A stretch of 44,063 nucleotides of DNA, taken from Nitrososphaerota archaeon. GTDB taxonomy: Archaea; Thermoproteota; Nitrososphaeria; Nitrososphaerales; Nitrosopumilaceae. Numbering within the stretch: the stretch's first letter is position 1; every line of letters begins with the position of its first letter. The DNA lies in contig VBPW01000018.1 of assembly GCA_005877305.1 (NCBI GenBank), positions 1 through 44,063 on the forward strand. The letters run 5' to 3'. The notes beneath the pieces are model-generated. The model was not told the DNA's origin and made no database searches. It saw only the letters and a list, made by a program, of their open reading frames with translations. A program made the position numbers and the translations under genes. Shown here one piece after another: positions 15,424-23,869 of this stretch.

Positions 15424-15975
15424 CTATAAAATTAAAACGGCTGCTGCAAAAACAGTTGTCCAGTGTCCTTTTGGATCTCCAACGGCACTCTGTGTAATGT
15501 TCCTTGTTTTGTAAATTTCTCCGGATATTTTCCATTGTTTCCTTTTTTCGTCCCAGCTCTTATCTATATCAAATTTTATTCCAAGCGAGGACGCAAGCAT
15601 TTGGGCAGCAATATCCTCAGCATAATCTCCAGCTTCTTTTTCTGTTTCACCAAATGAATGATATTCTGAAAGATATCCATATTTGGTTTTGTCAGCTGGT
15701 TCGGCAATGCCAACAGAAGCTGCCATTAGTCTATGTGGCTCGTTACTTTGTTGTCTAGCATAAATTACAAATTGAACGCCTCCTGGGCGTATCAATTTCA
15801 ATCCCTCAGCACGAGAGATTAGCTTTGCAGCAGGTGGAAAAATGCTAGATATCAAAACCAGGTTTGTACCGGCAATACCAGCATCTCGCAGCGAGTATTC
15901 AAAACTTGTAAGCTGATCCTGGTGAACTCCTTTACCTCTGGTAAGGAATAATTTTTTTGCGACTAGGTCTAACAC
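15424..15975 (-). CDS. pdaD: Pyruvoyl-dependent arginine decarboxylase
   Basis: LVLISSIFPPAAKLI (Ser-Ser processing site), PGGVQFVIYAR, EPHRLMAASVGIA, GYLSEYH. Confidence 0.9.
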   Translation of the reverse strand: MLDLVAKKLFLTRGKGVHQDQLTSFEYSLRDAGIAGTNLVLISSIFPPAAKLISRAEGLKLIRPGGVQFVIYARQQSNEPHRLMAASVGIAEPADKTKYGYLSEYHSFGETEKEAGDYAEDIAAQMLASSLGIKFDIDKSWDEKRKQWKISGEIYKTRNITQSAVGDPKGHWTTVFAAAVLIL

Positions 15976-18523: not shown

Positions 18524-19009
18524 TTATTCTGAAATCTTGGAAAGATGAACGTGTACTATTTTCCATTTAGTAGATTTTATCATGACAAATGTTGCCCTGC
18601 TTAACATAGAAAGGTGTTGTCCTCGGAAACTATAGTTATCAACGATCATTCCTGTCTGCTTTAATTGAAATGTGACGACAGCACTGTTTTCAAAAAGATC
18701 TATTTTTGGATTTATTATTTTATATTCATAATCAGATATGCTAACAAACCTTAATTCTTGTAGTGCAACTGTCGTTGCATAATCTTTGAGATCAAATGGT
18801 GGTATGTCACTGTAACTTGAAAATCTTGTATCGTCAAGTTGTATTGCGGCAAGCGGGGCTAGGTTTTTTGTTTTTCCAGTATCAAAAAAAATCTTAATTA
18901 TTTCTAGTATTTCTTCTCTGTCAGACAAAATCAATCTTGCTTGAGGAACAACTCGTTTAAGTTTTTGGAAAACCATGCTAAAATCGTTATTGTTTATCAC
19001 ACGAGACAT
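18524..19009 (-). CDS. SnoaL/NTF2-like fold protein
   Basis: C-terminal strand pattern YEYKIINPKIDLFENSAVVTFQLK...STKWKIVHVHLSKI. Confidence 0.55.
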   Translation of the reverse strand: MSRVINNNDFSMVFQKLKRVVPQARLILSDREEILEIIKIFFDTGKTKNLAPLAAIQLDDTRFSSYSDIPPFDLKDYATTVALQELRFVSISDYEYKIINPKIDLFENSAVVTFQLKQTGMIVDNYSFRGQHLSMLSRATFVMIKSTKWKIVHVHLSKISE

Positions 19010-19075: not shown

Positions 19076-19088
19076 AATATTTATAAAT
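19076..19088 (+). promoter_or_regulatory. Putative archaeal TATA box for ilvB
   Basis: taatatttataaattatt; about 25-30 nt upstream of a plausible TSS near 19107. Confidence 0.5.
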
Positions 19089-19116
19089 TATTCTTGTTGC
19101 AAAACTATAGACTGAA

Positions 19117-19179
19117 ATGAAGTTAGGAGGATCGGCGAGCATTTCTAGTATTCTGTTGCTAGTCGACCTTATGCTGTAA
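19117..19179 (+). promoter_or_regulatory. Putative leader peptide ORF / structured 5' leader of ilvB
   Basis: MKLGGSASISSILLLVDLML*; 9/20 residues Leu/Ile/Val; hairpin 19128-19141/19157-19169 within it. Confidence 0.45.
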
Positions 19180-19209
19180 ATACACAGCTTAGTTTCTGGT
19201 GAAAAAATT

Positions 19210-20898
19210 ATGGAAAAAATGTCAGGTGCTAGATCATTAATGGTTGCCTTAGAAAAGGAGGGCGTGGAGCTAGTCTTCGGACTACCCGGCGGTGCAAACT
19301 TGCCAATCTACGATGAGCTATACAAGAGTAATATTCGCCACATCTTGGTAAGGCATGAACAGTCTGCTGCGCACATGGCAGATGGATTTGGCAGAGTGAG
19401 CAGGAGACCAGGTGTCTGTTTTGCAACCTCTGGCCCTGGTGCAACAAATATCGTAACTGGAATTGCAACAGCTCAAGCTGATTCGGCTCCAATGATTGCC
19501 ATTACTGGACAAGTTCCTTCAAAGATGATTGGTAGAGACGCATTTCAAGAAAGTGACATCATAGGAATAACAAATCCAATTGTCAAATATGCCTTTCAAC
19601 CAATGGACGCAGCTGAAATTCCAGAGGTAGTAAAAAAAGCATTTTACATTTCATCCACAGGCAGGCCCGGACCAGTATTAATAGACATTCCAAAAGACGT
19701 ACAACAAAATGAAGCTGAAATGCAATTCCCAAATGAAGTTAAAATCAGAGGATATCACCCATGGGTAGACCCCGATATCAGAGAAATCGAACGGGCAATT
19801 GAGATGCTCCTTTCATCAGAAAGACCAATCATTCTTGCAGGTGGCGGAGTAATAATTTCAGGAGCATTTGCAGAATTACAATCAATAGCAGAACTTCTTA
19901 TGATTCCAGTAGTGACAACTTTCAAAGGAAAAGGATCATTCCCAGAAAATCATCCCTTATCACTTGGCCCAATTGGAATGCATGGACATGCAGAGGCAAA
20001 TAAAATGATGGTAGAGGCAGATTGTGTTCTTGCAGCAGGTTCCAGATTTTCAGATAGGTCAGTAGGAACCTTTGAGGAATTTGAAAAGAGATTAAAAATA
20101 ATCCACATGGATGTAGACCCTGCAGAGATTGGTAAAAATCAAACTACAACTGTTGCAGTAGTTGGAGACATCAAGGCTTCGTTGAGAATAATGGTAAAGA
20201 TGTTAGTTCAAAAAGCAATCAAGCGTGGTGATAACAACCCTTGGTTAAAGAAAGTAAATGAAACCAAAGAATATTTTAGAGAAAATTTGAAGCTTCATCC
20301 ACATCCCCTTGGAGCAGCCAAAGTTTTACGCAAGCTAAGAGAAGTGCTTCCACATCAATCAATTGTAACCACAGAAGTTGGTCAACATCAGATGTGGGCC
20401 TCACTATTTTTTGATGTCATTCAACCTGGAACTTTTTTTAGTTCAACAGGTCTTGGAACTATGGGTTGGGGATTTCCTGCAGCAATAGGTGCCAAAGCCG
20501 CAAAACCAAGTGTCCCAGTCTTAGACATTGCTGGAGAAGGAAGCTTTAACATGACAGAAAATTCTCTAGCAGTATCAGTTTTAGATAATTTGCCTGTTAT
20601 TGTTTTGTTGATGAATAACTTTTCACTTGGAATGGTAGCACAGTGGCAGAGAACATTCTACGATAAGAGAATGATTGGCATTGATCTCAAAAACTGTCCA
20701 GATTATGTAAAAATAGCAGAAGCATATGGAGCTCAAGGAATTAGAGCAGAATCCATAGATGAGATTGGTAAAGCTGTTCAAACCGCACTCAAAAGCGATG
20801 TTGCAACTGTAATTGATGTACCGATTGACCCACAAGAGGACGTTTTACCATTTGTAGCGCCAGGTACACCCCTCAAGGACATGATCCTACCCTCATAG
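19210..20898 (+). CDS. ilvB: Acetolactate synthase large subunit
   Basis: ThDP enzyme motifs [58 protein letters not shown]. Confidence 0.95.
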
Positions 20899-20906
20899 GG
20901 ATTTCA

Positions 20907-21345
20907 ATGTGGTCTATAATTTCTGTACTAGTAGAGAATAAACCGGGAGTCTTGTTTAAGGTGACAAATCTTTTTAGATCAAGAAATTACAACATCGATA
21001 GCATCTCCGTAGGGATAACTGAAAATCCAGAATTTTCTAGAATGACAATCACCACATCGGCTGATGAAAAACAACTCAATCAAATAATAAAACAGCTTGA
21101 CAAGATGATCGACTCAGTTGAGGTAAAACACTTAGAAGAGAAGAGACAGCATGGAAATAATGAACCTTGCCAATGCTTTCAAATGCCAAGTTCATGATGT
21201 GAGAAAGACATCAATCATGGTCGAAATAACTGCCACACCAGACAGGATTAATGCGTTTGAGGATCTAGTTCGTGGATACGGAATTTTAGAAATTGCAAGA
21301 ACTGGATTATGTGCGCTCCCAAGAGGCGGGATCAATGAAGATTAG
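20907..21345 (+). CDS. ilvN: Acetolactate synthase small subunit, apparently frameshifted near 21140
   Basis: 20907..21197 gives the ACT domain ([36 protein letters not shown]); 21151..21345 gives the C-terminal domain ([46 protein letters not shown]). Confidence 0.9.
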
Positions 21346-22852
21346 AATTTTTGACACAACATTAAGAGACGGAGAACAAACACCAGGAGTGGCCCTAACT
21401 CCAGAGCAGAAACTAAGTATTGCACAAAAACTTGATGCCCTTGGAGTTGATGCCATAGAAGCTGGATTTCCAGTAATTTCAGATGGTGAAATGCAAGGAA
21501 TCAGATTGATAACAAGTGCAAACTTGAATGCTGAAATTTGTGGACTAGCAAGAACTGAGAAAAAAGATATTGACGCAGCAGTTTCAGTAGGTCTCAAATA
21601 CATCCACACATTTATCGCAACATCAGACATTCACCTAAAGTATAAACTAAAACTTACTAAAGATCAAGCACTAGTAAAGGCAATTGAAGCAGTAGAATAT
21701 GGCAAGTCACTTGGTTTGCAGGTAGAATTCTCTGCAGAAGATGCGACCAGAACAGAAAGAGAATTTCTTAAAAAAGTTTTCAAAGAAATTGCACATGCTG
21801 GTGCAGATAGAATAGACATACCAGACACAGTAGGATATTCCACGCCAGGGTATATTGCAGAAATAACTAAAGATGCTATCGAAGCATCACATCTACCAAT
21901 AAGTGTACATTGTCATAATGATTTTGGTCTTGCAGTTGCAAATACAATTTCTTCAATCCAAGCAGGTGCACAGTGTGCTCATGTTACAATAAATGGTATA
22001 GGTGAGCGAGCTCGCAATGCATCTCTTGAAGAACTTGTAATGGCGCTTCAATGCTTACAGTTTGATAAAAAATATGAGACAAATATTAATACAAAACTTC
22101 TCTATGAGACATCAAGGTACGTTTCTAGTATAGTAGGAATCCACGTTCAACCAAACAAAGCAATAGTTGGCGAAAATGCCTTTGGGCACGAATCTGGGAT
22201 ACACACCCATGGAGTTTTGAATAATCCCTTGACCTACGAACCCATAAGTCCTGAACTTGTAGGCAGAACAAGATGGTTCCAAGTGGGAAAGCATGCAGGA
22301 GCTCATGGTGTTTCTGCAATGCTAGAGGAGTATGGAATTCAGCCAACAAGAAAACAGACTCAGGAAATTTTAGAGAGGGTGAAAAAACTTGGAGACCAGG
22401 GAAAACGTGTCACCGATGTTGAATTGCTTTCAATAACAGGAGAGGTCATGCAAACGCATGGTCTTAAGAGATTAGTACATCTCACGGGCTTTTCTGTGTC
22501 AACTGGCATTGGAAACATGCCATATGCCTTTGTCAAATTAAACATTGAAGGCAAAGACTTTATCGGCACTGATTATGGAGTGGGTCCAGTAGATGCATCA
22601 ATTAATGCAATTCAGAAAATAACTGGCGAAATAGCAAAGGTGCGAATCAAGGATTACAAATTAGATTCAATTGCTGGCGGCTCCGATGCACTTTGTGAAG
22701 TTACAATAAAAGTAGAGGACGTATATGGGAATCTTGCATCAGCAAAATCAATTGGAGAAGACATTGTAATTACAAGTGTGCAGGCAATGATTGATGGTAT
22801 AAACAGAATAATGCTCAAGAAGATTCTAAAACAGAAAAATTTGGGAAAATAA
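21335..22852 (+). CDS. leuA: 2-isopropylmalate synthase-family protein (alpha-IPM or citramalate synthase)
   Basis: IFDTTLRDGEQTPGVALTPEQK, SVHCHNDFGLAVAN, GHESGIHTHGVL; ATG at 21335 overlaps the ilvN end. Confidence 0.9.
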   Translation: MKIRIFDTTLRDGEQTPGVALTPEQKLSIAQKLDALGVDAIEAGFPVISDGEMQGIRLITSANLNAEICGLARTEKKDIDAAVSVGLKYIHTFIATSDIHLKYKLKLTKDQALVKAIEAVEYGKSLGLQVEFSAEDATRTEREFLKKVFKEIAHAGADRIDIPDTVGYSTPGYIAEITKDAIEASHLPISVHCHNDFGLAVANTISSIQAGAQCAHVTINGIGERARNASLEELVMALQCLQFDKKYETNINTKLLYETSRYVSSIVGIHVQPNKAIVGENAFGHESGIHTHGVLNNPLTYEPISPELVGRTRWFQVGKHAGAHGVSAMLEEYGIQPTRKQTQEILERVKKLGDQGKRVTDVELLSITGEVMQTHGLKRLVHLTGFSVSTGIGNMPYAFVKLNIEGKDFIGTDYGVGPVDASINAIQKITGEIAKVRIKDYKLDSIAGGSDALCEVTIKVEDVYGNLASAKSIGEDIVITSVQAMIDGINRIMLKKILKQKNLGK

Positions 22853-23869
22853 ATGTATCAAATCGCACTCATAACAGGAGATGGGATAGGGCCTGAGATA
22901 TCTGAATCTGTTATCAAAGTCTTAGAAACAATAAATGACAAACTTGATTTAAAAATAAAAATAGAAAAACTTGAAGCTGGTGACAATGCACTAGCAAAGA
23001 CTGGAAAAGCATTGCCTGAATCAACCTTAGAATCTATCAAAAAATCAAATGTATGTTTGAAAGCTCCAGTAGGAGAAAGTGCTGCTGACGTAATTGTGGT
23101 TTTAAGAAGAATTTTAAACCTCTATGCAAACATCAGGCCCGCAAAGTCATATCCTAACATGCCAGCACTAAAAGACAACATAGATTTGGTCATAGTGAGG
23201 GAAAATACAGAAGATCTTTACACTGGTATGGAATTTGACGTAGGGAATACGGCAGTAGCGATACGTACAATTTCAGAAAGTGCATCAAAACGAATAGCAA
23301 AATATGCATTTTTAATTGCAACCCAACGTAACCAGAAAAAAAAGGTCACTTGTGTTCACAAATCTAATGTCATGAGAAGAACAGATGGTCTTTTTGCAAG
23401 TTCCTGTAGTGAAATTGCAAAGGATTTCCAAAATATACAATTTGAACAGATGTATGTAGATGCGTGTGCAATGAATCTAATAAGGCAACCAGAAGCATTT
23501 GATGTAATTGTAACCACCAACTTGTTTGGCGATATTTTATCTGATGAGGCAGCACAAGTAGTGGGCGGCCTTGGTATGGCACCCGCTGCAAACATTGGAG
23601 ATGATTTTGCGTTATTTGAACCAGTTCACGGTGCAGCTTTTGATATCGCAGGAAAACAAGCAGCAAATCCCTCGTCGTTCATTCTTTCTGCAAAAATGAT
23701 GTTCGAATGGCTAGGAATGAAATACCAAGATCAAAAATGTTTTACGGTTGCAAAAAAAATAGAATCAGCTGTCTTTGGAGTAGTGAAAAATGGAATAAAA
23801 ACTAAAGACATTGGTGGCAACATGGCAACTAGTGAATTTACTCAGCATGTAATTGCCAACATCATCTAA
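22853..23869 (+). CDS. leuB: Isopropylmalate/isocitrate dehydrogenase family
   Basis: IALITGDGIGPEISESV, VRENTEDLYTGMEF, TNLFGDILSDEAAQVVGGLGMAPAANIGD. Confidence 0.88.
   Translation: MYQIALITGDGIGPEISESVIKVLETINDKLDLKIKIEKLEAGDNALAKTGKALPESTLESIKKSNVCLKAPVGESAADVIVVLRRILNLYANIRPAKSYPNMPALKDNIDLVIVRENTEDLYTGMEFDVGNTAVAIRTISESASKRIAKYAFLIATQRNQKKKVTCVHKSNVMRRTDGLFASSCSEIAKDFQNIQFEQMYVDACAMNLIRQPEAFDVIVTTNLFGDILSDEAAQVVGGLGMAPAANIGDDFALFEPVHGAAFDIAGKQAANPSSFILSAKMMFEWLGMKYQDQKCFTVAKKIESAVFGVVKNGIKTKDIGGNMATSEFTQHVIANII

Follow-up and report, generated by a model that had tools for sequence, protein, structure and literature searches.

Does a short open reading frame (ORF) ahead of an archaeal biosynthetic cluster allow the ribosome that reads it to set the expression of the genes behind it? 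According to Blombach et al. 2021, no transcription attenuation or antitermination mechanism was known in archaea (PMC8448881), and we found no archaeal precedent for an amino-acid-sensing leader peptide in the open-licence literature searched. The question arises in the stretch of DNA analysed here (the window, 44,063 nucleotides), where a leader ORF lies between a TATA box and ilvB, the first gene of an ilvB-ilvN-leuA-leuB cluster whose products serve the synthesis of leucine and the other branched-chain amino acids (BCAAs). The locus comprises these parts:

19076 to 19088, plus strand: TATA-like core promoter element of the leader-ilvB transcript, TAATATTTATAAA, backed by the spacing of the motif in relatives
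19107 to 19114, plus strand: predicted transcription start region, a few nt 5' of the leader ATG, placed by the TATA position and the established archaeal TATA-to-start spacing
19117 to 19179, plus strand: leader ORF, MKLGGSASISSILLLVDLML and a stop, backed by coding-frame conservation, C-terminal BCAA conservation and CTG enrichment
19104 to 19200, plus strand: P1, a possible outer stem with arms 19104-19115 and 19189-19200, from the MFE fold of the window only
19127 to 19170, plus strand: P2, a stem within the leader ORF with arms 19127-19141 and 19157-19170, from the MFE fold and 25 distinct 20-codon leaders
19173 to 19188, plus strand: P3, the stop-proximal hairpin GCUGU (19173-19177) / ACAGC (19184-19188) over the leader stop codon, from the MFE fold and relatives
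19198 to 19202, plus strand: GGTGA, likely Shine-Dalgarno (SD) motif of ilvB, 12 nt 5' of its start and similar in relatives
19210 to 20898, plus strand: ilvB, acetolactate synthase large subunit (TIGR00118, over cut-off)
20907 to 21197, plus strand: ilvN, acetolactate synthase small subunit (TIGR00119, over cut-off)
21293 to 22852, plus strand: leuA-type 2-isopropylmalate synthase (NF002085 and TIGR02090, over cut-off)
22853 to 23869, plus strand: leuB-like isopropylmalate/isohomocitrate dehydrogenase (TIGR02088, 409.3 bits, the cut-off being 409.8)

The first-pass annotation had described the TATA-like element at 19076-19088, a 20-codon ORF rich in Leu, Ile and Val, a stem inside that ORF and a second hairpin across its stop codon. 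The TATA-like element is present, and the coordinates of the ORF agree: its ATG occupies 19117-19119 and its TAA 19177-19179, leaving 30 nt to the ilvB ATG at 19210. Both stems appear in the MFE fold, and the one inside the ORF is retained among 20-codon leaders. The idea was to fall if close relatives kept neither ORF nor stem. They do keep them: the ORF with its BCAA codons, and the hairpin near the stop, persist throughout the order and beyond. The divergent neighbour of the leader promoter (18524-19009, minus strand) encodes a protein of 161 aa in which a SnoaL-like domain (PF13474) is borderline and which has no NCBIfam match, and a pyruvoyl-dependent arginine decarboxylase (PF01862) is encoded at 15424-15975 on the minus strand of the window. 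The best matches to the window's ilvB in the species collection share 92 and 90% identity with it in the case of two Thaumarchaeota MAGs, 90% in a Nitrosotalea MAG and 89% in Candidatus Nitrosotalea devanaterra; by these ilvB relatives, the window is placed beside Nitrosotalea.

Judged alone, the window's leader is mildly unusual in sequence; it is the comparison with relatives that makes a strong case. The leader folds with z = -1.77, a stability equalled by 5 of 200 shuffles, and nine of the 19 residues after Met are Leu, Ile or Val (P about 0.03 at the window background of 24.8%). We compared the regions upstream of ilvB in relatives from the same family, order, class and phylum, many of whose genomes are MAGs. 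A leader ORF with a BCAA-rich end precedes ilvB at 50 of 60 loci of the family, representing 17 of 22 genera. Beyond the family, such an ORF also occurs in 13 families of the order, in five more that belong to the class and in one from a different class. Within this range fall the leaders of Candidatus Nitrosotalea devanaterra (L271, MTKVDSTSISSILLQVELVL) and of L048 (MINPVAASSILLLEVLY), whose genome (G047) we take to be that of Nitrosopumilus maritimus SCM1. Examples from other families of the order are MKVMSGCQPNIHLGLTVVVGLAPLVLVVV (L073), MGKDFDFQIPVSISILLLSLLL (L078) and MRSSIKLDRELSVTNLLIVNVLLVLSVLLLVVLL (L088), with L060 a weak case, and from another family of the class MSERMSASPSSVALIVLLIVV (L209). 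Outside the class, the leaders at two loci of family f41 (L230 and L233) end in VVILK.

Within the family, no leader was found in five genera (g2, g5, g6, g10 and g16) or in one member of g11; the leaderless loci are L036, L045, L046, L050-L055 and L057. The g5 genomes measure about 0.8 Mb, so loss of the leader may accompany genome reduction or host association. Most other families of the phylum showed no leader upstream of ilvB, and neither did Methanosarcina and its relatives. In several of the leaderless families of the phylum, by our reading of unannotated sequence, ilvB seems to be preceded by the end of a leuA-like gene. Family f2 (L062-L065) carries a different, Met-rich possible leader that begins MLY, contains a GIG..LGL-like part and is not clearly BCAA-terminal. 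In family f27 (L248 and L250), similar short ORFs, MVRDNPRQLGLL and MVRGSLRQLNLL, lie upstream of ilvB; they are not BCAA-rich and end in Leu-Leu.

As the leaders had been picked by reading the upstream regions, the unbiased contrast is an automatic count over any short ORF in ilvB and control regions, the latter taken from upstream of trpE, hisG, ilvC and ilvD. At least seven Leu, Ile or Val among the last twelve residues of the best short ORF were present in 40 of 70 ilvB regions versus 3 of 115 control regions. No convincing BCAA leader was seen upstream of ilvC, ilvD, trpE or hisG. The sole leader-like ORF observed upstream of ilvC was MNTVNGLISTLPLIREPKPSNSTLPLLTVLAVL at L153 (family f2). 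The window's genome contains a single instance of the C-terminal codon pattern, with no further copies; off-target matches to it in relatives, inspected at L350 and L354, were not leaders upstream of ilvB.

Leaders range from 13 to about 36 codons. Their N-termini drift, and the C-terminus stays rich in Leu, Val and Ile, with the consensus ILLLV-D/E-LVL-stop. When the leaders were aligned at the stop, changed codons in the ORF frame scored a mean BLOSUM62 of 0.85 versus 0.01 expected, with no stops; the other two frames gave means of -0.66 and -0.32 and hundreds of stop-containing comparisons. By this measure, the leader frame is under coding selection. Of 1138 Leu codons in ilvB itself (29 re-oriented ilvB genes, loci L001-L029), 0.8% are the rare CTG, versus 25.5% of the non-final Leu codons of leaders, an enrichment of about 30-fold; in the window's genes CTG accounts for 5% of Leu codons. 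Of 44 distinct leader ends, 35 have CTG as their last codon, and the common Leu codons CTT and TTA are avoided. The final CTG lies within P3, and TTG and CTA lie within P2, so RNA structure shares in this codon bias. We propose that the terminal Leu and Val codons of the ORF are its control codons.

The same data bear on the possibility that the nascent peptide rather than codon supply is sensed, the ...LLVDLxL sequence stalling the ribosome at or near the stop and thereby setting ilvB expression, with free leucine perhaps acting as ligand, as tryptophan does for TnaC. Conservation is indeed position-specific: Leu stands immediately 5' of the stop (position -1) in 85% of leaders, Leu, Ile or Val occupies -3, -5 and -6 in 93, 95 and 90%, the favoured residues being Val at -5 and Leu at -6, and -4 is often acidic. 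We nevertheless regard peptide arrest as improbable, for Leu, Val and Ile interchange, distant leaders are BCAA-rich without a fixed motif (VIIVV.., LVIVVILK, TVVVGLAPLVLVVV), and a sensor of the peptide only would have no need of the enriched rare Leu codons.

The most constant RNA element is P3, with a mean z of -1.91 at the 80 loci (38 groups) taken into the hairpin tests versus -0.14 in a control, the opening 46 nt of ilvB. It begins at the leader stop, a position kept in most related leaders, and its sequence turns over completely: besides GCUGU/ACAGC, the arms read GCGCGU/ACGCGC, AGGACUCACA/UGUGAGUCCU, GCGCCUUAAG/CUUAAGGCGC and others. To assess covariation, 5' arms were matched with 3' arms taken from other loci. 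A locus's own arms ranked in the top 5% in 15 of 37 groups (1.9 expected) and in the top 1% in 12 of 37 (0.4 expected), by a test that is blind within the window's own family because arms there are alike. In 20-codon leaders, P2 shows 83.6% standard pairs versus at most 53% when the arms are slid, and the 25 distinct leaders of this length contain one clean GC/AU compensatory pair, at two third codon positions. An outer stem of the P1 type is, from the folds compared, not general: genus-mates of the window fold otherwise, and cross-locus support was found in 5 of 34 groups. Some genera do have a stem running from the leader start to beyond its stop, though in altered sequence (GAGCACA/UGUGCUC, GACCACA/UGUGGUC, GACUGA/UCAGUC). 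The geometry differs in family f18 (L211, L212 and L217), where a hairpin lies inside the leader ORF (GGTCTAC/GTAGACC in L212), followed by a U-rich stretch, and the leader stop overlaps the ilvB SD.

Could the leader merely supply ilvB with ribosomes that terminate and then reinitiate, without any sensing of amino acids? Its stop lies 29-83 nt from ilvB across the leaders, an SD precedes ilvB, and bacterial leader ORFs can raise downstream translation (PMC4833913). Such constitutive coupling would leave unexplained the BCAA richness, the rare codons and the restriction to ilvB among the genes examined, as well as a conserved hairpin standing in the path of reinitiation, and we think it unlikely. 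Still less probable is a functional small hydrophobic protein, perhaps of the membrane, encoded before ilvB by chance. A hydrophobic C-terminus and coding selection would suit such a protein; a length varying from 13 to about 36 codons, unrelated N-termini, C-termini in some cases too short to span a membrane (L058, MMTTATQTLLVLS), a position always before ilvB and a hairpin at the stop would not. That a chance ORF overlies a structured, non-translated leader RNA is scarcely credible and is already contradicted by the comparative data, as the frame-specific coding conservation and the recurrence of leaders with unrelated sequence in distant families outweigh the weak single-sequence significance and the overlap of pairing constraints with codons.

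In relatives, the TATA-like motif mostly starts 33-38 nt 5' of the leader ATG, with extremes of 23 and 50, which predicts a transcript start a few nt 5' of the leader. This spacing supports a single transcript that would carry the leader and the biosynthetic genes from the upstream promoter. Nitrosopumilus-like lineages (L018-L048 and others, for example L037) have a conserved AATTTTAACACATTAAAATTATGG between the leader stop and ilvB, about 30 nt before the gene. The element AACACATTAAAATTATGG, at that distance from ilvB in these lineages, could act as a second promoter from which transcripts would lack the leader, and we count it against an attenuator. A similar core, AACACTTAAAATTA, persists in the leaderless L045, L053 and L057, so the shared element may serve as a core promoter internal to the region or as the site of a regulator.

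The means by which P3 might act was explored by looking for the elements of known switches. A run of at least four U follows P3 in only 4 of 38 groups, although automatic calling undercounts the family, where it merges hairpins. Such runs exist in some lineages (GCGGCC..GGCCGC followed by UUUUUU in L216; four to five U in several Nitrosopumilaceae) and are absent in G+C-rich ones. Because the latter retain the hairpin and not the U-run, intrinsic termination was rejected as a universal mechanism. Mutually exclusive antiterminator pairing beat cross-locus controls at 5% in 0 of 38 groups. Pairing of P3 with the SD was not conserved across the groups tested, and pairing of the leader with the SD stood out in 3 of 38 groups (1.9 expected), being strong in the single loci L083, L085, L213 and L214. 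Simulated stalling raised SD access in 9 of 36 groups and shifted accessibility little overall; general SD sequestration is unsupported by either the pairing counts or these simulations. A few loci, from three families, have leader codons with complementarity to the SD region. At L083 (family f4), the complementarity between the control codons CTTCTAATCCTCACTG and the ilvB SD region is extensive and would allow direct translational attenuation there. Rfam covariance models gave no match at the gathering score in the window or in 20 related loci.

We consider it likely that the leader is a ribosome-mediated attenuator of ilvB-ilvN-leuA-leuB that senses the charging of Leu, and of Val and Ile, tRNA. 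This reading is based on the conservation of the ORF, its coding selection, the enrichment of BCAA and rare codons, the promoter spacing and the covariation of the hairpin. From these sequence features we infer the transcription start, the translation of the leader, the stalling and the direction of control. Transcription would begin a few nt 5' of the leader ATG, and the leader would be translated first. With ample BCAAs, the ribosome would pass the terminal LLVDLML codons, terminate at 19177 and depart, whereupon P3 would form and lower ilvB expression. When charged BCAA-tRNAs are scarce, ribosomes would stall on the last codons, mask the 5' arm of P3 and hold the hairpin open, so that ilvB is made. 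We favour the hairpin as the off state because the BCAA-rich 3' end of the ORF abuts or overlaps the hairpin at the stop codon: a stalled ribosome would cover its 5' arm and a departing one would free it. P3 might then act through factor-dependent termination by FttA/aCPSF1, through lineage-specific intrinsic termination or by hindering 30S loading just 5' of the SD.

More broadly, we lean slightly towards an attenuation system of ancient archaeal origin that probably existed early in the class Nitrososphaeria, in which a leader peptide and a single stop-proximal hairpin would couple branched-chain tRNA charging to ilvB expression by direct occlusion by the ribosome and the terminator/antiterminator switch of bacteria would be absent. 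Conserved as it is in an archaeal order and beyond, the leader offers a concrete test case for ribosome-position gene control in archaea, and bears on whether transcription and translation are coupled there closely enough for attenuation. It also bears on the control of amino acid synthesis in the ocean's abundant ammonia oxidisers, and it suggests a simpler, one-hairpin attenuator design.

How, then, does the leader compare with known systems? With the bacterial branched-chain attenuators, namely enterobacterial ilvL, leuL and ivbL, the Corynebacterium glutamicum ilvBNC leader (PMC11857589) and actinobacterial leaders (PMC1262725), it shares a short 5' ORF rich in end-product codons, rare Leu codons and hairpins, all before an acetolactate synthase operon. 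It differs in its archaeal host, its one stop-proximal hairpin, its lack of a conserved antiterminator or U-run terminator, and the absence of any sequence or covariance-model match. The resemblance to these attenuators that the first-pass annotation had pointed out thus extends to a conserved ORF, BCAA codons and hairpin, and stops short of a conserved antiterminator, U-run terminator or SD sequestration. We do not file the leader among them because the terminator/antiterminator switch was tested for and not found, and because Rfam gave no match. In pyrBI of Escherichia coli, the position of the ribosome blocks hairpin formation and no separate antiterminator is required. The likeness to our proposal is that the ribosome itself keeps the hairpin from forming; the difference is that pyrBI responds to UTP, sensed via RNA polymerase pausing, instead of to tRNA charging, and that its terminator includes a U-run. 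Archaeal FttA/aCPSF1-dependent termination (PMC8116511) could serve as the off switch if the nascent RNA is left naked once ribosomes are released, although FttA/aCPSF1 is a general termination factor and no link to leader peptides was found in the literature searched. In TnaC-type arrest leaders (PMC8429421), too, stalling near the end of a short ORF alters downstream expression; these rely on peptide sequence and a ligand, whereas in the archaeal leader the peptide drifts and the BCAA codons persist.
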